NCBI GenBank assembly: GCA_022614805.1
Contig: JAKEHY010000026.1
Span: 1-40,100 of the forward strand
Length of the DNA stretch: 40,100 bases
DNA from: Candidatus Zixiibacteriota bacterium
Lineage (GTDB): Bacteria > Zixibacteria > MSB-5A5 > DSPP01
Reading direction: 5' to 3'
Of this stretch, positions 3,177-21,636 are shown in pieces. Every line of letters begins with the position of its first letter. Positions within the stretch are counted from its first letter, which is position 1. Under the pieces are notes generated by a model, which saw nothing but the letters and a program-made list of their open reading frames with translations, was not told the origin of the DNA and did not search any database. The position numbers and the translations under genes are program-made.

Positions 3177-3809
3177 TTACGGGTAAACCTGCTGGGTCTG
3201 CTCCGGGGCGGAGGCCGTCGGAGGGCCCAACACGCGCAAAACCACCCGCCGGTTGGCGGCATTCCCTTCTCCAGCTTCCGAAGGAGACTTCAGGTTGCTT
3301 TCCCCAAAACTGATGGCATACATCCGGAAAACCGGAATCTGGTAGCTGCCCGAGAGGTAGAGTTGAACGGCCTGGGCGCGGTGCTGCCCCAAAGTCAGGT
3401 TGTACTTCTCCGAGCCGATGGGGTCGCAATATCCTTCGACTTCCAAAATGAGACTCTTGTCTTCCTTCATCCGCGGGCCGATTTCGTCCAAGAGGTTTTT
3501 GGTGACGTCGGAAAGCGCGAAGCTGTCAAAACGGAAGCGCACTTCCTTCTCCATAATCACCGTGTAATCGGCGAAAGCAGCCCGCATGGCGGCGGCCCGG
3601 GCGGCCTCATCTTTGGCCTCCGACGCCAGACGCATCGCTTCCGCGAGCCTTTCTCCGTGGGAAGTCTCCACCGAGGCAATCTTTTCTGCGTTGGCCCGGT
3701 CGGTCTCTTCCAGCACCTTCACTTTCTTGTTGACGTACCCGGTGGTGGCGCAGCCAAAGACAAAAAAGGAAAGCCCCAAAACCCCAGCCGCTGCTTTTAA
3801 AACACCCAT
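3177..3809 (-). CDS. OmpA-family peptidoglycan-binding lipoprotein (Pal-like)
   Basis: The 210-aa protein starts with a hydrophobic signal and a lipobox ending FFVFGC, so it should be lipidated at Cys20 and anchored in the outer membrane. Residues about 28-75 form an alanine/glutamate-rich helix that is probably a coiled coil. Residues about 90-195 form an OmpA C-terminal domain: VRFRFDSFAL, LEVEGYCDPIGSEKYNLTLG, HRAQAVQLYL and a terminal NRRVVLRV. This domain binds meso-diaminopimelate in peptidoglycan and tethers the outer membrane to the wall. No tol genes are adjacent. A strong SD (AAGGAGGA) precedes the ATG. A short linker rich in P, Q and T closes the protein. Confidence 0.9.
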   Translation of the reverse strand: MGVLKAAAGVLGLSFFVFGCATTGYVNKKVKVLEETDRANAEKIASVETSHGERLAEAMRLASEAKDEAARAAAMRAAFADYTVIMEKEVRFRFDSFALSDVTKNLLDEIGPRMKEDKSLILEVEGYCDPIGSEKYNLTLGQHRAQAVQLYLSGSYQIPVFRMYAISFGESNLKSPSEAGEGNAANRRVVLRVLGPPTASAPEQTQQVYP

Positions 3810-3879
3810 AAGTCCTCCTTTCTTTAATTCCTTATACTGATAACCCCGAAAAAAAGATGAATTTTTTGTTTAAAAAATT

Positions 3880-4443
3880 TTAACGGGGGGCGGCTTTGAC
3901 GTAGAAGGTGTTGCCGACCACCCGCACGATTTCAACGGCCGTGTTTTTGGCCAGCTCGGTGTCATCCATCGATTTGGCCGGTCCCGTATAGCGGCTCCCT
4001 TTGGAGACGTAGGTGATTTCCCCCACCCGGTCTTTGCTGATGGGGGTAATCACTTCGGCCATCGTGCCGACGAGCGCGGCCACCTCCGCTTCCGAAGAGG
4101 ATTGCGTGGCGGAATAGACCTTGCGGAAAATCAAAAAAGCGAGTGCGCCGAAGCCGAGACCGGATGCGGTCGCCACCATTACCGCCGGGAGCGCCGCCAT
4201 TCCCATCCCCCTGGCCGCCGCCAGCCCCCCGGCGCCGAAGGTGGTCACAAAAGTGGCGATGACCATCGGGCTCATCGGCGAAAAATGCACTTCGCCGGAG
4301 ATGCCGTGGCCGGCGCCGCCGGCATCCGTGCCGGAGGCATCCTGTCCGCCGGTGAAGGAGCCCAGAAAGACGGAGATGATGGCGTAGAAAAGCCCGGCCA
4401 AGAGACAGAGCAAAAAGAATCCGGAAAGAGAAATGGCTATCAT
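3880..4443 (-). CDS. NfeD-like membrane protein with C-terminal OB fold
   Basis: The 187-aa protein has an N-terminal membrane segment (residues 4-30), a glycine-rich loop, two further hydrophobic helices about 55-115, and a soluble C-terminal region (about 122-185) with VAALVGTMAEVITPI, RVGEITYVSKGSRYTGPA and NTFYVKA. This is the architecture of NfeD/YuaF-type proteins, which partner flotillin-like SPFH proteins in membrane microdomains. No flotillin gene follows in the window, so the partner is unknown. The ATG has no Shine-Dalgarno and is preceded by a promoter 9 nt away, suggesting a leaderless transcript. Confidence 0.65.
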   Translation of the reverse strand: MIAISLSGFFLLCLLAGLFYAIISVFLGSFTGGQDASGTDAGGAGHGISGEVHFSPMSPMVIATFVTTFGAGGLAAARGMGMAALPAVMVATASGLGFGALAFLIFRKVYSATQSSSEAEVAALVGTMAEVITPISKDRVGEITYVSKGSRYTGPAKSMDDTELAKNTAVEIVRVVGNTFYVKAAPR

Positions 4444-4452
4444 TGAGCGTGG

Positions 4453-4481
4453 AAGTTAGGAGGAGAGAGGGGAAGTGTCAA
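4453..4481 (-). promoter_or_regulatory. Sigma70-like promoter of the NfeD-like gene
   Basis: On the minus strand a perfect TTGACA (4476-4481) and TAACTT (4453-4458) are 17 nt apart. The -10 box ends 9 nt before the ATG at 4443, so the leader would be only about 2-3 nt. The -10 match is modest. Confidence 0.45.
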
Positions 4482-4501
4482 TGGATTTTGCAATTGAACA
4501 G

Positions 4502-4594
4502 CGTGGCGCAGGTTAAGTATCATCTAACCTGCGTAGTTTCCACGGAGACGCAGGATACGTTCCGCCTATGGCGGAACTTTATCCTGCGCCATGA
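4502..4594 (+). repeat. Two adjacent CGCAGGWTA-armed palindromes
   Basis: The first palindrome pairs CGCAGGTTA (4507-4515) with TAACCTGCG (4525-4533). The second pairs CGCAGGATA (4549-4557) with TATCCTGCG (4580-4588) and contains an inner perfect stem GTTCCGCC/GGCGGAAC. The same outer arms with a different core recur at 10841-10883, which makes this a dispersed REP/MITE-like family. It fills most of the gap between ispG and the NfeD-like gene. Confidence 0.75.
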
Positions 4595-4633
4595 AACTGA
4601 TGCAGAAATGGAAGGTGTTTTGTCGCAGAAGAT

Positions 4634-5743
4634 TTATACCGGTATCGATTCGGGAAGGGCCGCACTCTTCCCTTCAGCCAAGAAGGAATGCACCTCTTCC
4701 ATCAGCGCATCGAAAATCTCTTCCTCCTTGACTTTTTTGACTACCTTGTCGCCGCGATAAATAAGTCCGATGCCCCGCCCGCCGGCCACCCCCACATCCG
4801 CCACGGCCGCCTCGCCGGGGCCGTTCACCACGCAGCCCATCACGGAAACGCGGATGGGCCGGGAGATTTTGGCCATCTCGGCCTCCACCCGTTTCAAAAG
4901 GGGGAACATATCGATTTCGCAGCGGCCGCAGGTGGGGCAGGCGATGATGACCGGTCCGCGCTGGCGCAGGCCCAGAGATTTGAGAATTTCAAAGGCCACC
5001 TTCACTTCCTCCACCGGGTCCTCCGCCAAAGAAACCCGGATGGTATCGCCAATCCCTTCCGCCAATAACGTCCCTATGCCCACTGCTGACTTTATGGAGC
5101 CGGCAAAGGCCGAGCCCGCCTCGGTGATGCCCAAATGCAAAGGATAAATCGATTTTTCGGCGAAGAGCCGGTAGGCGGCCAAGGCCTCGTTCACGTCCGA
5201 AGACTTGAGCGAAACCACCACGCTGTTGTACCCCATATCTTCCAGGATTCCGCAATGGCGCAGGGCCGCTTCGACAATCGCTTCCGGCTTGGGGCCGCCA
5301 TGTTTTTCCCACAAATCCTTGGGAAGGGAGCCAGTGTTGACGCCGATGCGAATCGGGATGTTTCGCTCCGCCGCGGCCTTCACCACTTCGCGGGTTTTCC
5401 ATTCCGCGCCGATGTTGCCGGGATTGATGCGCAGCTTGTCGGCGCCGCCTCGGATGGCCAAAAGCGCCAGCTTGTAGTCGAAATGAATGTCGCAGACTAG
5501 TGGCAGATTAATTCGCTTTTTGATTTCTGGAACGGCCAAAGCCGCTTTTTCATCCAAAACCGCCACCCGCACGATTTCGCAGCCGTACTCCTCCAACCTC
5601 CTAATCTGGGCAACGGTCGCTTCCACGTCCCGGGTGTCGGTGGTGGTCATCGATTGTACCACAACAGGCGCCCCGCCGCCGATGATGACCTTCCCCGCCA
5701 CCGTAACGGGGCGGGACTTGCGTCGTGGAAAAGCTTGGTTCAT
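4634..5743 (-). CDS. ispG: 4-hydroxy-3-methylbut-2-enyl diphosphate synthase (flavodoxin/ferredoxin)
   Basis: The 369-aa protein is IspG/GcpE, the [4Fe-4S] enzyme that reduces methylerythritol cyclodiphosphate to HMBPP in the MEP isoprenoid pathway. The N-terminal TIM-barrel carries VVVQSMTTTDTRDVEAT, LVCDIHFDYKLAL and LRINPGNIG. The C-terminal iron-sulfur domain has CPTCGRCEID and VMGCVVNGPGEA, which hold the cluster cysteines. Length is typical of the short bacterial form without the inserted domain of plants. The ATG is chosen because a good -10 box lies 9 nt upstream and no SD is present. No other MEP gene is nearby. Confidence 0.96.
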   Translation of the reverse strand: MNQAFPRRKSRPVTVAGKVIIGGGAPVVVQSMTTTDTRDVEATVAQIRRLEEYGCEIVRVAVLDEKAALAVPEIKKRINLPLVCDIHFDYKLALLAIRGGADKLRINPGNIGAEWKTREVVKAAAERNIPIRIGVNTGSLPKDLWEKHGGPKPEAIVEAALRHCGILEDMGYNSVVVSLKSSDVNEALAAYRLFAEKSIYPLHLGITEAGSAFAGSIKSAVGIGTLLAEGIGDTIRVSLAEDPVEEVKVAFEILKSLGLRQRGPVIIACPTCGRCEIDMFPLLKRVEAEMAKISRPIRVSVMGCVVNGPGEAAVADVGVAGGRGIGLIYRGDKVVKKVKEEEIFDALMEEVHSFLAEGKSAALPESIPV

Positions 5744-10969: not shown

Positions 10970-11028
10970 AATACGAAAATTCTTTCTTTTTCCGAATTTG
11001 TTTGTATAACCTATGTTGAAAAAAATGT

Positions 11029-11056
11029 GTAGGGGTTTGATTAATCAAACCCCTAC
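11029..11056 (+). repeat. Perfect 28-bp palindrome of the TAGGGG family
   Basis: GTAGGGGTTTGATT (11029-11042) is followed at once by its exact reverse complement to 11056. It ends 15 nt before the Shine-Dalgarno of the redox gene at 11085, so it lies in the leader or promoter region. A nearly identical unit occurs at 11826-11853 before the next redox gene. Confidence 0.9.
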
Positions 11057-11084
11057 GAAAGACAAACAAGAAAGGAGCGGTGAA

Positions 11085-11696
11085 ATGCGGTTGCGTTACA
11101 GCGGGGTGATTTTAGCTGCGGTTTTGGCTCTGGGGGCGTTCGCTCGGGCAGAGGAACTCCCCCTCGGCGAAACGGGACCTTCCTTCTCCCTTTTGGGCAC
11201 TGACGGCAAGACCTATTCTTTGGCCGATTACGGGGAGAAGAAGGGGCTGGCGGTGATTTTCACCTGCAATGCCTGCCCCTATGCCAAGGCGTTCGAAGAC
11301 CGCATCGTCAAGCTGGCCAAGGAATACCAGCCCAAGGGAATTGCGTTTGTCGCGATTAATCCCAACGATCCGGGACGGGTGCCGGAGGACAGTTACGAAA
11401 ATATGGTCAAGCGGGCCAAGGAGAAAGGGTTCGTTTTCCCCTATGTGTACGATTCCACCTCCGAAGTGGCGGCGGCATACGGTGCGCGGGTGACCCCCCA
11501 TCTCTTTTTGCTGGACGGCGACTTAAAGCTGGTTTATCGCGGGCGGATTGAAGACGACTCCGACCCGAAGAAGGTGAAAAGCTACGATTTGAAGAATGCG
11601 ATGGATGCCCTTTTGGCCGGCAAGAAGATAAAAGTGGCCGAGACCAAGGCCTTTGGCTGCACCATCAAGTGGCGCAAGCAGGCCTCGGCCGATTAA
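11085..11696 (+). CDS. Exported thioredoxin-like protein (AhpC/TSA-redoxin type)
   Basis: From the ATG at 11085, chosen because AAAGGAGC lies at 11071-11078, the protein has 203 residues. Residues 1-22 are a signal peptide ending ARA. The mature part is a thioredoxin fold: ETGPSFSLLGTDGKTYSLADY, VIFTCNACPYAKAFEDRI with a CxxC pair followed by proline, INPNDPGRVPEDSYENM, and the cis-Pro region ARVTPHLFLLD. The type is found as periplasmic or secreted redoxins with thiol-disulfide or peroxide activity; the exact substrate is unknown. A further cysteine (FGCTIKW) sits near the C terminus, as in relatives. The neighbouring genes at 11861 and 16406 are also redox proteins. Confidence 0.8.
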   Translation: MRLRYSGVILAAVLALGAFARAEELPLGETGPSFSLLGTDGKTYSLADYGEKKGLAVIFTCNACPYAKAFEDRIVKLAKEYQPKGIAFVAINPNDPGRVPEDSYENMVKRAKEKGFVFPYVYDSTSEVAAAYGARVTPHLFLLDGDLKLVYRGRIEDDSDPKKVKSYDLKNAMDALLAGKKIKVAETKAFGCTIKWRKQASAD

Positions 11697-11853
11697 CCTC
11701 ACCCTCGGTCCCTCTCCATACGATGGAGAGGGAAGAAAAACGAGGAGGGCTTTTTTCCCCTCTCCACTTTGTGGAGAGAGTTAGGGTGTGTAGGGGCGGG
11801 TTGCGAACCGCCTTTCCGGTTTTCTGTAGGGGTTTGATTAATCAAACCCCTGC
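11697..11853 (+). repeat. Cluster of palindromic repeats between two redox genes
   Basis: Three elements are packed here. An imperfect inverted repeat of CCCTCTCC/GGAGAGGG type covers about 11697-11788 with hairpins CCCTCTCCATACGATGGAGAGG and CTCTCCACTTTGTGGAGAG. Half a TAGGGG unit (GGCGGGTTGCGAACCGCC) follows from 11789. A 28-bp TAGGGG palindrome (11826-11853, one arm mismatch) ends 7 nt before the ATG of the lipoprotein gene. No coding sense is seen. Confidence 0.7.
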
Positions 11854-11860
11854 ATTTCTT

Positions 11861-12646
11861 ATGCGGGTGAGATTCGTTAAATTCCAGATAATCGTTTTCG
11901 CCCTCCTTTTCGCCTGCGCCAAGCCGCCGCAAAAAGTGCAGTTGAGTCCGATAGGGGATAAGGCGCTGTATGAGAACCAGTTGTTGCAGTTTAGAGTTTC
12001 TTCCAACAATCTGGCAGGCGCCGTGCCAAACCTTAAGGCCGAGAACCTTCCTATAGGCGGTACGTTTATCGATTCGCTCGATGGAGTAGGTTCATTTAGT
12101 TGGATTCCGGATTTTACCCAAGCAGGAAAATATGATGTAATCTTCATAGCCAGTGATGGTTCCTTTGTGGACAGTGAGTCAGTGACCATCACAGTCAATA
12201 ACGTGAATGGAATATCCGACGTACCAGTAAAGGTCGTTTCACCCTCTGGTTTGCGGACGGAGATGGAGCAGTTTGCTGATAAATCGGTGGTTTTGAACTT
12301 CTGGGCCACCTGGTGTGGGCCCTGCACCACCGAGATTCCGGACTTGGTAAAATTCTACCAGACCATCGACACCTCCAAACTGAAAATGATTGGCGTCTCC
12401 GCCGATTTCTTTGTGGTTGGCGATTCGGCCCAAATCGTCGCCAAGGTGGGGGATTTTTTGAGGGAGAAAAAAGTTTCCTACCCCAATTTCATCTACCGCG
12501 GCCCGGTGGACAGCCTGTCCAACCTGTTCAACCTTTCCGGCATTCTGCCGGAAACGATTATTTACGATTCCTCCGGCAAGGAAGTTTTTCGTCACGAGGA
12601 TTTGATCACGCTTTCGGAATTGGAAAAGGCCGCTCAAGGCCTGTAA
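11861..12646 (+). CDS. Lipoprotein with putative-Ig domain and TlpA-type thioredoxin domain
   Basis: From ATG 11861 the protein has 261 residues. A short signal ends with a lipobox LLFAC (Cys about 18). Residues about 25-115 form a putative-Ig/cadherin-like domain (ENQLLQFRVSS, GVGSFSWIPDFTQAGKYDV, FIASDGSFVDSESVTITVNN), a style frequent in Zixibacteria-like genomes. Residues about 120-261 form a TlpA/ResA thioredoxin domain with VVLNFWATWCGPCTTEIPDL and the proline region GILPETIIYD. Such proteins reduce periplasmic disulfides, for example for cytochrome c maturation; the Ig part may position it. The first half is A+T-richer than the second. A longer frame from 11669 runs through repeats and is rejected. 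Confidence 0.82.
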   Translation: MRVRFVKFQIIVFALLFACAKPPQKVQLSPIGDKALYENQLLQFRVSSNNLAGAVPNLKAENLPIGGTFIDSLDGVGSFSWIPDFTQAGKYDVIFIASDGSFVDSESVTITVNNVNGISDVPVKVVSPSGLRTEMEQFADKSVVLNFWATWCGPCTTEIPDLVKFYQTIDTSKLKMIGVSADFFVVGDSAQIVAKVGDFLREKKVSYPNFIYRGPVDSLSNLFNLSGILPETIIYDSSGKEVFRHEDLITLSELEKAAQGL

Positions 12647-16290: not shown

Positions 16291-16405
16291 AGTAGAAAGC
16301 AAAGAGGGTATGATGATATCGGGAACAAATGGAGGATTTTTGGCGATAAAAATAGTAGGTGAGGAAAGTGTTATGAAGATACGCGACAGTAACAGAAGGA
16401 GAGTG

Positions 16406-17284
16406 ATGCGGCGAAACCTACTGCTTGCCGCCGGGGTCCTCTTTGGGTCGTCGCTGACTTTTGCCGGCGACAAGTCCAAAGAGATTTATCCCGAGCAAGG
16501 CCGAGGGATTGCCTGGCAGGATTACACCCAGGCCACTGCGACAGCGAAGAAGGCGCACAAGCCGGTCCTGGTCGATTTCTGGCGGCCGGGCTGAAAGTGG
16601 TGCGCGCGGATGGAGGAGTCGACCTACGTCGCCCCAAAAGTCATCCGCCTACAAGACCAGTTGGTCTTTGCAAAAGTGAACGGCTATGAGGATACGGCGC
16701 TGGCGCGCCAGTACGGGATTTCCGGCTACCCCACCATCATTTTGCTGGCTTCCACCGGGGAAGAGATTGACCGGCTGTGGGGCTACTTCCCGCCGGACAG
16801 CTTTCGCCAAACCGTCAACAACTACCTGGCAGGGGTGGGGACAATGCCTGCTCTGGAAAAACAGTTGGCCAAGGAGCCGGAAAATATCGGCTTGATGATG
16901 CAGGTGGGCGAAAAATACGCCAGCCGCAGCCGGTTTGAAAAGGCGGTGGAGCTTTACAAAAAGGTCATCGCCCAAGACCGGGAGAACAAAACGGGCAAAG
17001 TGCCGGAGGCCTTGTACAATGCCGGGGATGCCCTCTCCCGCGGGAAGAAATTTATGATAGCCAAACAGTACTATCAATCGTTAGTGGATAAATATCCGAA
17101 CGCGGAGGAATACAACGACGCCCTTTTGGAAATCCCTTACCAGCACGAGCAGATGGGGGATACGGCGACCGCCCTGAAGGGCTACCGGCAGGTGCTGAAA
17201 GAGCATCCGAACCACCCGGACACGGCTTGGCTGCAAAAACGGATTATCAAATTCACCGCGCCGGTTAAAGAGAGTGATAAATGA
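16406..17284 (+). CDS. Exported thioredoxin-TPR protein, probable selenoprotein with UxxC site
   Basis: The frame from ATG 16406 to 17284 is open except for one TGA at 16592-16594. That codon is residue 63 in VDFWRPG-U-KWCARMEEST, exactly the first position of the thioredoxin CxxC (Cys66 is the second). Relatives have a cysteine there, so TGA is best read as selenocysteine. The frame, codon usage and fold continue after it: VFAKVNGYED, cis-Pro in ISGYPTIILL, then about 130 residues of TPR repeats (VELYKKVIAQDRENK, AKQYYQSLVDKYPNA, ALKGYRQVLKEHPNH). Residues 1-20 are a signal peptide. The start is set by AGAAGGAG at 16394. A weak hairpin with a GGAGGA loop follows the TGA (about 16598-16627) and might be the SECIS. 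The alternative is a nonsense mutation in a pseudogene. Confidence 0.75.
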
Positions 17285-17350: not shown

Positions 17351-20110
17351 ATGGATGAGAAACAAATGACAGAAACAACGGCACAAAGCGGATTGCGGCT
17401 GGAGCGATACTTTACGGAAGAAGGTGTTCATCCCTTCGATACCGTAGCGTGGGAAAAGCACACCGCCGTCATCCGCGGGGCGGACGGCAAAGTCGTTTTT
17501 GAACAGACGGAAGTGGAATTCCCCACATTCTATTCCCAACTGGCCATCAACGTGGTCGTCTCCAAATACTTCCGCGGCAAGCTGGGCACGCCGCAAAGGG
17601 AAACAAGCTTGAAACAGGTGATTTCCCGGGTCGTCAACACCATCCGGGACTGGGGGGTCAAGGACGGCTACTTTGCCACCCCCAGCGATGCGGAAATCTT
17701 CACCGACGAGCTGACCCACCTTCTGCTGTACCAAAAAGGGGCCTTCAACAGCCCGGTCTGGTTCAACGTCGGCATCGAGCCCACCCCGCAATGCTCCGCC
17801 TGCTTCATCCTTTCGGTGGAAGACACAATGCCCTCGATTCTGGACTGGATTAAAACCGAGGGGATGATTTTCAAGGGGGGCTCCGGCTCCGGCATCAATT
17901 TGTCCACCATACGCTCCTCGCGCGAACATCTAGCGGGGGGAGGGCTTGCCTCCGGCCCGGTCTCCTTTATGCGCGGAGCCGACGCCACCGCCGGGGCCAT
18001 CAAATCGGGGGGCAAAACCCGCCGCGCCGCCAAAATGGTGGTTTTGAACGTGGACCACCCGGACGTTCTCGAATTCACCAACTGCAAAGCGGTGGAGGAA
18101 CAGAAAGCTTGGGCTTTGGGGGCTTCCGGCTTCGATATGACCATCAACGGCGAGGCCTGGAAATCGATTCAGTTCCAAAACGCCAACAACTCCATCCGCG
18201 TCACCGACGATTTTATGAAACAGGTGGAAGCCGATGGGCCGTGGGATTTGAAAGAGATTAAGACCGGCAAGGTTATCGAAACCCTTCCGGCCAAGGAAAT
18301 TTTGCGCCAGGCGGCCAAGGCCGCGTGGCAGTGCGGCGACCCGGGAATGCAGTACGACACCACCATAAACTCCTGGCACACCTCCCCCAACTCCGGGCGC
18401 ATCAACGCCTCCAACCCCTGCTCGGAGTATATGCACCTGGACGATTCCGCCTGCAACCTGGCCAGCTTGAACATTATGAAGTTCCGCGGCATAGAAGGGG
18501 AGTTCGACCCGGAATCGTTCAAAAAGGGGGTGGATACCTTCATTCTGGCGATGGATATCATCGTCGATAACTCCAGCTACCCGACGGAACGGATTACAAA
18601 GAATGCCAAAGCCTTCCGGGAGCTGGGCTTGGGGTACGCCAACCTGGGGGCTTTCTTGATGAGCCGGGGCCTGCCGTACGATTCCGAGGAAGGGCGCGCG
18701 GTGGCGGCTTCCATCACTGCCCTTCTGACCGGCGAAGCGTACCGGATGTCGGCCGAAATCGTCGAAAAACAGGGGCCCTTCGCCGGCTACGAGAAAAACA
18801 AAGAGCCGATGCTGAACGTGATTGCCAAGCACAAAATTTCGCTCGACAACGTCGATGCCAAGCTGGTGCCGCCGCCTCTTTTCAAAGCGGCTGAAAAAGC
18901 GTGGGACGAAGCGTATGCATTGGGGAAAAAGCAGGGATACCGCAACTCGCAGGTCTCCGTCATCGCCCCAACGGGAACGATTGCCTTTATGATGGACTGC
19001 GACACCACCGGCATCGAGCCGGACATTGCCCTCGTCAAATACAAAAACTTAGTCGGCGGCGGAGTGATGAAAATAGTCAACCAGACCGTGCCGGAAGCGC
19101 TCTTGTATATGGGCTATCCAAAAGAGCAAATGGAGGAAATCGTCAAGTTCATTGAGGAAACCGGAACCATCGAGGGCTCTCCGCATCTGAAAGCCGAACA
19201 TCTGTCGGTTTTCGACTGCGCCTTCAAAGCCCAGGTCGGCACCCGCTTTATCCACCACATCGGGCATCTGAAAATGATGGGGGCCGTGCAGCCCTTCATC
19301 TCCGGCGCCATCTCCAAAACGGTGAATATGCCCAACGAGTCGACGGTGGAAGAGATTATGGATGCCTTCACCCAGGGCTGGAAGCTCGGCTTGAAGGCCC
19401 TCGCGATCTACCGGGACGGCTCCAAGCGCACCCAGCCGTTGGTCACCGGTCTGGAGAAGAAGGCCGAGCCGGGGCCGCGCCGCAAACGGCTGCCGGACGA
19501 GCGGGACGCCTACACCCACAAATTCTCCATCGCCGGCCACGAGGGATACATCACCGTCGGCCTGTACGGCGACGGCAACCCGGGGGAGATTTTCATCACG
19601 ATGGCCAAGGAGGGCTCGACCGTTTCCGGTTTGATGGACTCCTTCGCCACGGCCATCTCGCTGGCCCTGCAGTACGGCGTGCCGCTGCGCACGTTGGTGG
19701 AAAAGTTCATCAATATGCGCTTCGAGCCGGCCGGCTTCACCAACAACCCGGAAATTCCTTTGGCCCGCTCGATAATGGACTACATCTTCCGCTGGATGGG
19801 GAAGAAATTTTTGCCCCCCGACCAGCAGCCGGAGGGTTTGACCGTCATCCGCGTTGAGGAACCGGCGGACGGGAAGGGAACGGCTGCCCAACCCTCCAAA
19901 TCCGCAGGGGCAGGTTTTCCCTCGACTTCGCTCGGGACAGGCCAACCCGGCCGGGGCGGGGTGGAGGGGTCTGGCAGTGCGGGCCAAAAACAGGCCGCCT
20001 TCCAGAACCAGATGGACGCGCCGCTTTGCGCCGATTGCGGGATGATAATGGTGCGCAACGGTTCCTGCTACAAATGCCTGAACTGCGGCAGCACCTCCGG
20101 CTGCAGTTAG
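17351..20110 (+). CDS. nrdJ: Vitamin B12-dependent (class II) ribonucleotide reductase
   Basis: The 919-aa enzyme reduces ribonucleotides to deoxyribonucleotides with adenosylcobalamin and needs no oxygen. Recognisable blocks are FNSPVWFNVGIEPTPQCSAC, GGSGSGINLSTIRSSRE, ARRAAKMVVLNVDHPDV, the active-site NPCSEYMHLDDSACNLASLN near residue 356, and GTIAFMMDCDTTGIEPDIAL near 541. The C-terminal part is a TSCPD-like domain and ends with a zinc ribbon (CADCGMIM, CLNCGSTSGC) that holds the redox cysteines. The SD AGGAGGGGAAAGG precedes the ATG. The linker before the ribbon contains a dispersed palindromic repeat in frame (19903-19945). No B12 riboswitch was identified. Confidence 0.96.
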   Translation: MDEKQMTETTAQSGLRLERYFTEEGVHPFDTVAWEKHTAVIRGADGKVVFEQTEVEFPTFYSQLAINVVVSKYFRGKLGTPQRETSLKQVISRVVNTIRDWGVKDGYFATPSDAEIFTDELTHLLLYQKGAFNSPVWFNVGIEPTPQCSACFILSVEDTMPSILDWIKTEGMIFKGGSGSGINLSTIRSSREHLAGGGLASGPVSFMRGADATAGAIKSGGKTRRAAKMVVLNVDHPDVLEFTNCKAVEEQKAWALGASGFDMTINGEAWKSIQFQNANNSIRVTDDFMKQVEADGPWDLKEIKTGKVIETLPAKEILRQAAKAAWQCGDPGMQYDTTINSWHTSPNSGRINASNPCSEYMHLDDSACNLASLNIMKFRGIEGEFDPESFKKGVDTFILAMDIIVDNSSYPTERITKNAKAFRELGLGYANLGAFLMSRGLPYDSEEGRAVAASITALLTGEAYRMSAEIVEKQGPFAGYEKNKEPMLNVIAKHKISLDNVDAKLVPPPLFKAAEKAWDEAYALGKKQGYRNSQVSVIAPTGTIAFMMDCDTTGIEPDIALVKYKNLVGGGVMKIVNQTVPEALLYMGYPKEQMEEIVKFIEETGTIEGSPHLKAEHLSVFDCAFKAQVGTRFIHHIGHLKMMGAVQPFISGAISKTVNMPNESTVEEIMDAFTQGWKLGLKALAIYRDGSKRTQPLVTGLEKKAEPGPRRKRLPDERDAYTHKFSIAGHEGYITVGLYGDGNPGEIFITMAKEGSTVSGLMDSFATAISLALQYGVPLRTLVEKFINMRFEPAGFTNNPEIPLARSIMDYIFRWMGKKFLPPDQQPEGLTVIRVEEPADGKGTAAQPSKSAGAGFPSTSLGTGQPGRGGVEGSGSAGQKQAAFQNQMDAPLCADCGMIMVRNGSCYKCLNCGSTSGCS
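19903..19945 (+). repeat. Palindromic repeat core inserted in frame within nrdJ
   Basis: TCCCTCGACTTCGCTCGGGA at 19918-19937 differs by one base from the core of the intergenic palindrome at 13980-13999. It is flanked by CAGGGGCAGG on the left. It encodes PSTSLGT in the low-complexity linker between the catalytic body and the C-terminal zinc ribbon, where an insertion can be tolerated. Confidence 0.75.
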
Positions 20111-20117
20111 AAGGGGT

Positions 20118-20465
20118 ATGCAGGCCAAACTGCTTTTGGGGCTTTTGGCCGCTTTCGCGGCGATTGCCATAGGCATCTGGCAGGATGGCGCCCAAAAACC
20201 GTGGAACATTTTTCTTGGGTATTGGATGCCACTCATCACCTATATGCTTTATTTGCGGGTATCTGCCGACAAAAAGAAACTCCTGCTTTCCGTTTTCGTT
20301 CTGGTCACGGTTTTCTATGCCTTCATGGCGTTGATGGCCATCGGAATGGACAGGTTGTTTACGCTTGGAGGTCTGCTCATCGTTGTCGGTTTGATTGCCG
20401 CCGTCTGGATTCCGCTGGCTTGGTTGTGCAGAAAATCGATGGCGGTGGAAAAACCGGCCGGATAA
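20118..20465 (+). CDS. Small integral membrane protein of unknown function
   Basis: The 115-aa protein is almost wholly hydrophobic, with four predicted membrane helices: residues 3-19, 29-46, about 55-75 and 83-104. Short basic loops (SADKKK and CRKSM) suggest the orientation. The ATG lies 7 bases after the nrdJ stop, so it is probably translated from the same transcript. I recognise no family. A terminator 85 bases downstream closes the unit. Confidence 0.6.
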   Translation: MQAKLLLGLLAAFAAIAIGIWQDGAQKPWNIFLGYWMPLITYMLYLRVSADKKKLLLSVFVLVTVFYAFMALMAIGMDRLFTLGGLLIVVGLIAAVWIPLAWLCRKSMAVEKPAG

Positions 20466-20550
20466 CTTCGCGGCAGGGGATGCCCCGGCGTCAGGAGTCG
20501 ATAGGATTGGCCTACTAACACCTCGCCACCTCTTGACGCAACGCTCGCAA

Positions 20551-20578
20551 GCCCCGCCCCGAAAGGGCGGGGCTTTTT
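20551..20578 (+). terminator. Rho-independent terminator after nrdJ and the small membrane gene
   Basis: GCCCCGCCC (20551-20559) pairs with GGGCGGGGC (20565-20573) over a C-GAAA loop, followed by TTTTT (20574-20578). Confidence 0.9.
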
Positions 20579-20588
20579 GTTTGGCATT

Positions 20589-20615
20589 CGTAGGGGCACG
20601 CTGCAACGTGCCCCC
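20589..20615 (+). repeat. TAGGGG-armed palindrome
   Basis: GTAGGGGCACG with CGTGCCCCC around a CTGCAA centre. It is nearly the same as the unit at 21634-21658, so one unit lies on each side of the secreted-protein gene. Confidence 0.75.
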
Positions 20616-20736
20616 GCGGGTTGGCTTCAGCCAGTCCCTGGAGTGCCGATACAGATACCGGGGTCGCTTCTTTAGGGGGGAACATCCGAGGTCAGAACAG
20701 CTGGCGACCCCCGATGGGGAAAAAGGAGAGGAGCAA

Positions 20737-21636
20737 ATGCAAAAAAATCTAATGATTACGGCGCTTGCGCTGCTTTACTTGGCGTTATGCTGCACGTCTG
20801 TTTGGGCCCAGGTGGACCCGCGCGATTCGGTCATTCTGGAATCCAAGGCAGTAGCCCCTTCCGCCAATCCTCCGGATGCGGCTGTTTTGATGGGGGTTTG
20901 GATAACCAACAAAGACACCATCTCCGAATTCAAGCTGCCCTTGGATGAAACCTCGCTTTCGGGTGGCGCCTATCTTTTTCTCTCCTACCCGCGCACTTTC
21001 ACCGGAGTGGTCAATCCGCAAACCATAACCCTCCAGTGGTTAACCGATTTGACCAGCAATCAGTACGACGGTGTCTCTCCGGACCGGTTCACGCTCATCG
21101 GGGATTACAATCCCGGCGATTTGACCACGGCCGAGCCGCCCAATGCGGTGCGGAAGCTTTTCTGGCAGATAAAATTCGACACGGTGACCGTCTCCGGTCC
21201 TTCCGGGCAGGTTTTATTCGACTCGGTTCGCAACAACCCCTCCGACCGGATAGAATTTCGCGACCTGTCGGGGACCCGGGTTCAGGTGCATTTCCTAAAC
21301 TCGGTTTTTACCATAACCGCCAGCGACGTGCGTGAAATCCATACCGGCATTGTTCCGCGGGAATACGCCCTTTCGCAGAACTATCCCAATCCGTTCAATG
21401 CGAATACGCGGATAGTTTTTGCCTTGCCGGAAGCGGGGCGCGCCACGTTGGAAGCGTTCAACCTGCTCGGCCAAAAGGTCGGCACGTTGGTGGATGAGTA
21501 TTTGAGCGCCGGAACGAAAATCGTCAGTTGGAACGGGCGTGACAACCGGGGAGCGCCGGTGCCATCCGGGGTTTATTTCTACCAGCTTCGCGCCGGAGGT
21601 TTCAAAGAAACGAAAAAGATGCTGGTTTTGAAATAG
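20737..21636 (+). CDS. Secreted protein with FlgD-like/T9SS type A C-terminal domain
   Basis: From ATG 20737 (SD GGAGAGGAG) the protein has 299 residues. Residues 1-24 are a signal peptide ending VWA. The middle (about 30-205) is a beta-rich region without a recognised family, containing LMGVWITNKDTISEFKLPL and FTLIGDYNPGDLTT. The last 85 residues form the FlgD-like Ig fold used as a type IX secretion sorting domain: YALSQNYPNPFNANTRIVF, AFNLLGQKVGTLVDEYLSAG, GVYFYQLRAGGF and KKMLVLK. It should be exported and surface-bound. Its stop codon TAG is the first three bases of a TAGGGG repeat. Confidence 0.82.
   Translation: MQKNLMITALALLYLALCCTSVWAQVDPRDSVILESKAVAPSANPPDAAVLMGVWITNKDTISEFKLPLDETSLSGGAYLFLSYPRTFTGVVNPQTITLQWLTDLTSNQYDGVSPDRFTLIGDYNPGDLTTAEPPNAVRKLFWQIKFDTVTVSGPSGQVLFDSVRNNPSDRIEFRDLSGTRVQVHFLNSVFTITASDVREIHTGIVPREYALSQNYPNPFNANTRIVFALPEAGRATLEAFNLLGQKVGTLVDEYLSAGTKIVSWNGRDNRGAPVPSGVYFYQLRAGGFKETKKMLVLK

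Follow-up and report, generated by a model that had tools for sequence, protein, structure and literature searches.

The window examined here, a stretch of 40,100 nt corresponding to contig C26 of a 2.56-Mb Zixibacteria MAG (93% complete), carries a thioredoxin-like gene whose frame is interrupted once, by a TGA at codon 63 (context VDFWRPG-U-KWCARM). This raises the question of whether the codon ends translation or is read as selenocysteine (Sec). The frame was as the first-pass annotation had described it: its 293 codons comprise 292 residues, with the TGA read as one of them, and a terminator that is also TGA, and no other internal stop is present. An alternative in-frame ATG lies at 16373, and the 388-codon frame around the gene contains one TGA. 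When other in-frame TGAs in Cys- or Gly-like contexts across the window were judged by eye, no further convincing case was found, and a search of the window against Rfam gave no matches. The features of the locus are listed in Table 1.

Table 1. Features assigned to the proposed selenoprotein gene and its mRNA, in window coordinates.
Feature	Position	Strand	Basis or remark
Shine-Dalgarno-like AAGGAG, 4 nt upstream of ATG 16406	16396..16401	+	Read directly from the sequence
Selenoprotein CDS	16406..17284	+	292 aa and TGA stop
Predicted signal peptide, residues 1-20, MRRNLLLAAGVLFGSSLTFA	16406..16465	+	By eye
Thioredoxin domain, ca. residues 33-142, active site UKWC	16502..16831	+	Pfam, AlphaFold, structural/profile matches
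Sec-UGA codon, residue 63, first position of UxxC	16592..16594	+	Homologues have TGA or Cys (TGC/TGT) in the same alignment column
Candidate bSECIS hairpin, loop GGAG (16615-16618), 20 nt from UGA	16599..16634	+	Agrees with the bSECIS constraints, as do 50 of 100 synonymous shuffles; enrichment at family level
Longer alternative stem, GCGGAUGG/UCAUCCGC, with a small hairpin inside	16606..16648	+	Possible in the congener too
TPR domain, ca. residues 147-284	16844..17257	+	PF13174 and other TPR models; AlphaFold helices

Pfam placed thioredoxin families at residues 47-137 (PF13098, E 7e-12; PF00085, E 7e-11) and TPR families at residues 147-276, and homology thus runs on across the TGA. The best match, PF13098, scored 46 bits against a curated cut-off of 27 with U in position 1 of CxxC, in agreement with the original placement of the TGA in the thioredoxin active site. 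An AlphaFold model from 26 family members (mean pLDDT 91, mostly >95 within the thioredoxin domain) gave a thioredoxin fold followed by TPR-like helices, residues 147-284 forming consecutive antiparallel-type helices. The thioredoxin domain matched DsbD-gamma, DsbH, and thioredoxins, and the TPR part matched YbgF, CTPR, and BamD. These results bear on the possibility that translation does end at the TGA and that the locus yields two products, one a short fragment and the other a protein of its own initiated at ATG 16610. Although the ORF 16610-17284 does begin with an ATG six codons past the TGA, such a break would cut the thioredoxin fold at its active site, the Cys-type homologues are single proteins spanning the site, and both flanks of the TGA have a low dN/dS, as given below. 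Two products are, in our estimation, very unlikely.

Homologues of the gene (E <= 1e-20) were present in 120 of 132 genomes of the class Zixibacteria. Among the 128 homologous matches in the 132 class genomes (a tally of rows), 69 had exactly one in-frame TGA and 59 had no stop, and neither TAA nor TAG occurred inside any of the frames. The 69 distinct TGA proteins extracted from class genomes and public contigs all had the TGA as the first residue of UxxC, and all retained the resolving Cys. Homologues without the TGA had Cys (TGC or TGT) at the site and rarely Ser (one Ser), which settles the proposed check on whether C or U stands at residue 63. The orthologue in the congener G001 is 79% identical and has the same TGA; relative to it, dN/dS was 0.16 for the 28 codons 5' of the TGA and 0.12 for the 228 codons 3' of it. 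No relatives of the gene were found on viral contigs.

A pseudogene, in which the TGA would be a random nonsense mutation in a once Cys-type thioredoxin-TPR gene, would fit both the Cys present at the site in many relatives and the end of the frame at the TGA under table 11. This reading is refuted by the joint conservation of the TGA and the downstream frame: the TGA column is common to 69 distinct relatives with TAA and TAG nowhere, purifying selection 3' of the TGA is strong (0.12), the gene has no other lesion, and Sec machinery is encoded in the genome (see below). The low dN/dS on both flanks excludes a decaying gene, and a pseudogene is, thus, hardly credible, as the first-pass annotation had argued from the improbability of a nonsense mutation at this codon. 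A sequencing or assembly error that turned TGC or TGT into TGA has still less to be said for it: the TGA is one base away from a Cys codon, but the same-site TGA was present in the independently assembled G001 and in dozens of other MAGs, and these independent genomes refute the reading.

The Sec machinery was then sought in the host genome, as had been suggested, and selA, selB, selC, and selD were all present in the same bin. selA, selB, and the tRNA-Sec gene are contiguous (G000:C12:49081-52383), the anticodon of the tRNA-Sec is UCA, and selD scored above the cut-off and itself has an in-frame TGA in the context ARSGGUAGK (locus L193, G000:C32:15000-22000, about 3734-4960). With tRNA-Sec(UCA), selA, selB, and selD in the host, the organism is expected to make and insert Sec. 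A wider change of the code, in which TGA encodes Trp or Gly throughout the genome, would also account for an in-frame TGA tolerated in the gene; however, TGA terminates this same gene, homologues lacking the in-frame TGA have Cys there and not Trp or Gly, and the Sec apparatus with tRNA-Sec(UCA) is complete. The use of TGA as a terminator together with the Cys homologues refutes this reading, whose probability we consider negligible. One relative runs counter to the selenoprotein reading: in G019, whose completeness is estimated at 100%, a copy of the gene with TGA (L178, G019:C101:985-1746) occurs with selA undetected and selB and tRNA-Sec below the cut-off; this shortfall perhaps reflects an assembly gap or a recent loss of Sec.

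Because of the machinery, the orthologues, and the selection, recoding of the UGA as Sec is shown computationally, and we assign it a probability of ca. 0.97. The claim as a whole, that the gene is a genuine selenoprotein gene with Sec predicted in its protein, is only slightly less secure, and the initial suggestion of a probable selenoprotein is, thus, strongly supported by the machinery, the homologues at the site, and an intact gene under selection. SelB would bring Sec-tRNA(UCA) to this UGA with the help of a hairpin in the mRNA immediately 3' of it, and the product would be an exported thioredoxin-fold protein whose active site reads Sec-Lys-Trp-Cys and which ends in a TPR domain.

The bSECIS model requires an apical loop of 3-9 nt with a G within the first two loop positions, located 16-37 nt after the UGA, and a folding energy no higher than -7.5 (2026 review). 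The weak hairpin with a GGAGGA loop noticed earlier just downstream of the TGA does exist (Table 1), but its strength does not exceed that of shuffled sequence: its energy of -9.6 kcal/mol was matched by dinucleotide and by synonymous shuffles, and 50 of 100 synonymous shuffles were bSECIS-compliant, as the hairpin is itself. In the alternative stem, 16606-16613 pair with 16641-16648 (z of -1.4 in the window and -2.8 in G001), and the apical loop is CUAC, which is without the G of the bSECIS model. Either of the two structures is a candidate for the SECIS of the window.

Across the family, 56 of 69 Sec genes satisfied the bSECIS model. Among Cys genes the figure was 11 of 43, and among synonymous shuffles of the Sec genes it was 86 of 276. 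The hairpin energy relative to synonymous shuffles (30 nt from +9) had a mean z of -1.85 in the Sec genes, whereas the value for the Cys genes was -0.41 (p 5e-9, a value that is overstated since related sequences are not independent). In a first set of 24 Sec genes, 11 kept at least five pairs of a six-pair stem round a UGGAY loop with differing sequences; this stem showed covariation (AACGC/GCGUU, GGUUC/GAAUC, and CUCGC/GCGAG), and none of 10,000 arm permutations was as good. L063, a member with TGT (Cys) that is nested among Sec members, keeps their strong hairpin (UCGAUAC/GUAUCGA). This combination is what a recent change from Sec to Cys would leave, and the hairpin is likely a fossil SECIS. 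The support for a SECIS is, thus, at the level of the family and does not come from the window's own hairpin.

The states Sec, Cys, and Ser at the site required about 10 changes on the tree as compared to 19.7 with shuffled labels, Sec and Cys being intermixed; the tree came from a quick search with 60 members and the Sec column left out, and many of its deep forks are open. A phylum-level search for relatives gave class members only and no outgroup. Five genomes (G003, G012, G019, G026, and G130; family f3) have two copies each, one stop-free (Cys where read) and one with Sec (UGSC/UGGC), which suggests specialised paralogues. Altered active sites, SAYS without any Cys and CPWS with the resolving Cys gone, were seen in L025, L015, and L029 and suggest that the function has changed in some lineages. 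In addition, a Sec form with a clear UGGAU-loop hairpin was found in L049 (CP070758.1), a record named Gemmatimonadota, which would mean transfer, a wider distribution, or a naming problem.

Both the signal peptide and the TPR tail, described as intact at the outset, were recovered, the TPRs by Pfam and the signal peptide as a prediction by eye and hydropathy, on which the predicted export is based. Of 112 homologues, 111 had a hydrophobic N-terminal stretch and 40 had a lipobox-like motif, and because of these a periplasmic or lipid-anchored location of the protein is most likely. Its proposed activity is that of an extracytoplasmic thiol-disulfide reductase or isomerase, and the TPRs would hold client or partner proteins. 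In thioredoxin chemistry, Sec63 would be the attacking nucleophile and Cys66 the resolving residue. The proteins that its thioredoxin domain resembles, DsbD-gamma, DsbH, and thioredoxins, are all thiol-disulfide reductases. The role that we favour, with some reserve, is that of an extracytoplasmic thiol-disulfide reductase.

The genomic neighbourhood was also inspected. A gene for a vitamin B12-dependent ribonucleotide reductase (17351-20110) starts 67 nt past the selenoprotein stop on the same strand. A functional link to it was rejected because the congener neighbour is unrelated and the selenoprotein is predicted to be exported. The neighbours in the congener are 2-oxoacid:ferredoxin oxidoreductase-like genes; as the gene neighbours differ between the two, they offer no operon clue to function. 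Two adjacent ORFs for ResA/TlpA-like thiol-disulfide oxidoreductases (11013-11696 and 11669-12646) lie ca. 4 kb 5' of the gene in the same orientation, and 20395-21636 of the window encodes a protein that carries a type IX secretion sorting domain at its C terminus.

By analogy, the selenoprotein might instead be chaperedoxin-like, a TPR holdase that keeps the cysteines of its clients reduced and would be an extracytoplasmic analogue of CnoX. YbbN/CnoX (PDB 3qou and 3qdn), in which an N-terminal thioredoxin is likewise followed by TPR helices, were the top Foldseek matches over both domains (277-288 columns), the phmmer matches include a chaperedoxin entry, and Caulobacter CnoX combines reductase and holdase activities (PMC6282202). 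On the other hand, the TM-score of 0.28 and rmsd of 22 indicate that the domain orientation differs, identity is 17-18%, and the active site has Sec in place of SxxC/CxxC. CnoX, moreover, passes its clients to cytosolic GroEL/DnaK, whereas the present protein is predicted to be exported or lipidated. We did not file it in the CnoX/YbbN chaperedoxin family, which is cytosolic, given this predicted export, and a chaperedoxin-like role appears doubtful beside the extracytoplasmic reductase role.

The protein resembles several other known systems in part. UxxC selenoproteins of PF13098 and PF00085 have already been catalogued (PMC9312934, PMC13188914), and a thiol:disulfide interchange selenoprotein family was listed in Syntrophus and Geobacter by an earlier survey (PMC1794560). 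The latter family (example WP_011366075.1) shares the PF13098 thioredoxin and Sec at position 1 of UxxC, but the TPR tail sets the present protein apart, as judged by the catalogue descriptions. The selenoprotein thioredoxin (PF00085, UxxC) has the same fold and the same active-site substitution; unlike it, the present protein is predicted to be exported, has about 140 extra TPR residues, and scores below the cut-off of the thioredoxin model TIGR01068. The C-terminal domain of DsbD and DsbH are exported thioredoxin-fold reductases and good matches to the thioredoxin domain, but here the DsbD transmembrane domain is replaced by the TPR tail and the scores fall below the NCBIfam cut-offs.

Neither TPR nor tetratricopeptide is mentioned in the selenoprotein catalogues PMC9312934 and PMC13188914, and we did not find the exported Sec-thioredoxin-TPR combination in them. 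The idea that a UxxC thioredoxin fused to TPRs was undescribed, thus, holds for the exported Sec form but not for thioredoxin-TPR proteins as such, which are known from CnoX/YbbN. A search of the open-access literature for Zixibacteria with selenocysteine or selenoprotein gave a single paper, which deals with Deltaproteobacteria, and an earlier description elsewhere is possible. A broader picture can be offered only tentatively: the gene may belong to an uncatalogued, nearly class-wide Zixibacteria family of exported Sec-thioredoxin-TPR proteins that would act as extracytoplasmic chaperedoxins and undergo repeated Sec/Cys exchange, with the SECIS kept or lost.

In about half of the Zixibacteria that carry the gene, standard annotation would truncate it at its active site, and a redox protein that is nearly universal in the class has, thus, probably been missed or mis-called. 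The family supplies a well-sampled bSECIS alignment from a lineage in which selenoproteins are scarcely mentioned in the open-access literature. Moreover, Sec and Cys have been exchanged several times independently at a single catalytic position in this class, and some genomes hold both a Sec and a Cys copy, which makes the family a useful natural collection for studying why selenium is retained.
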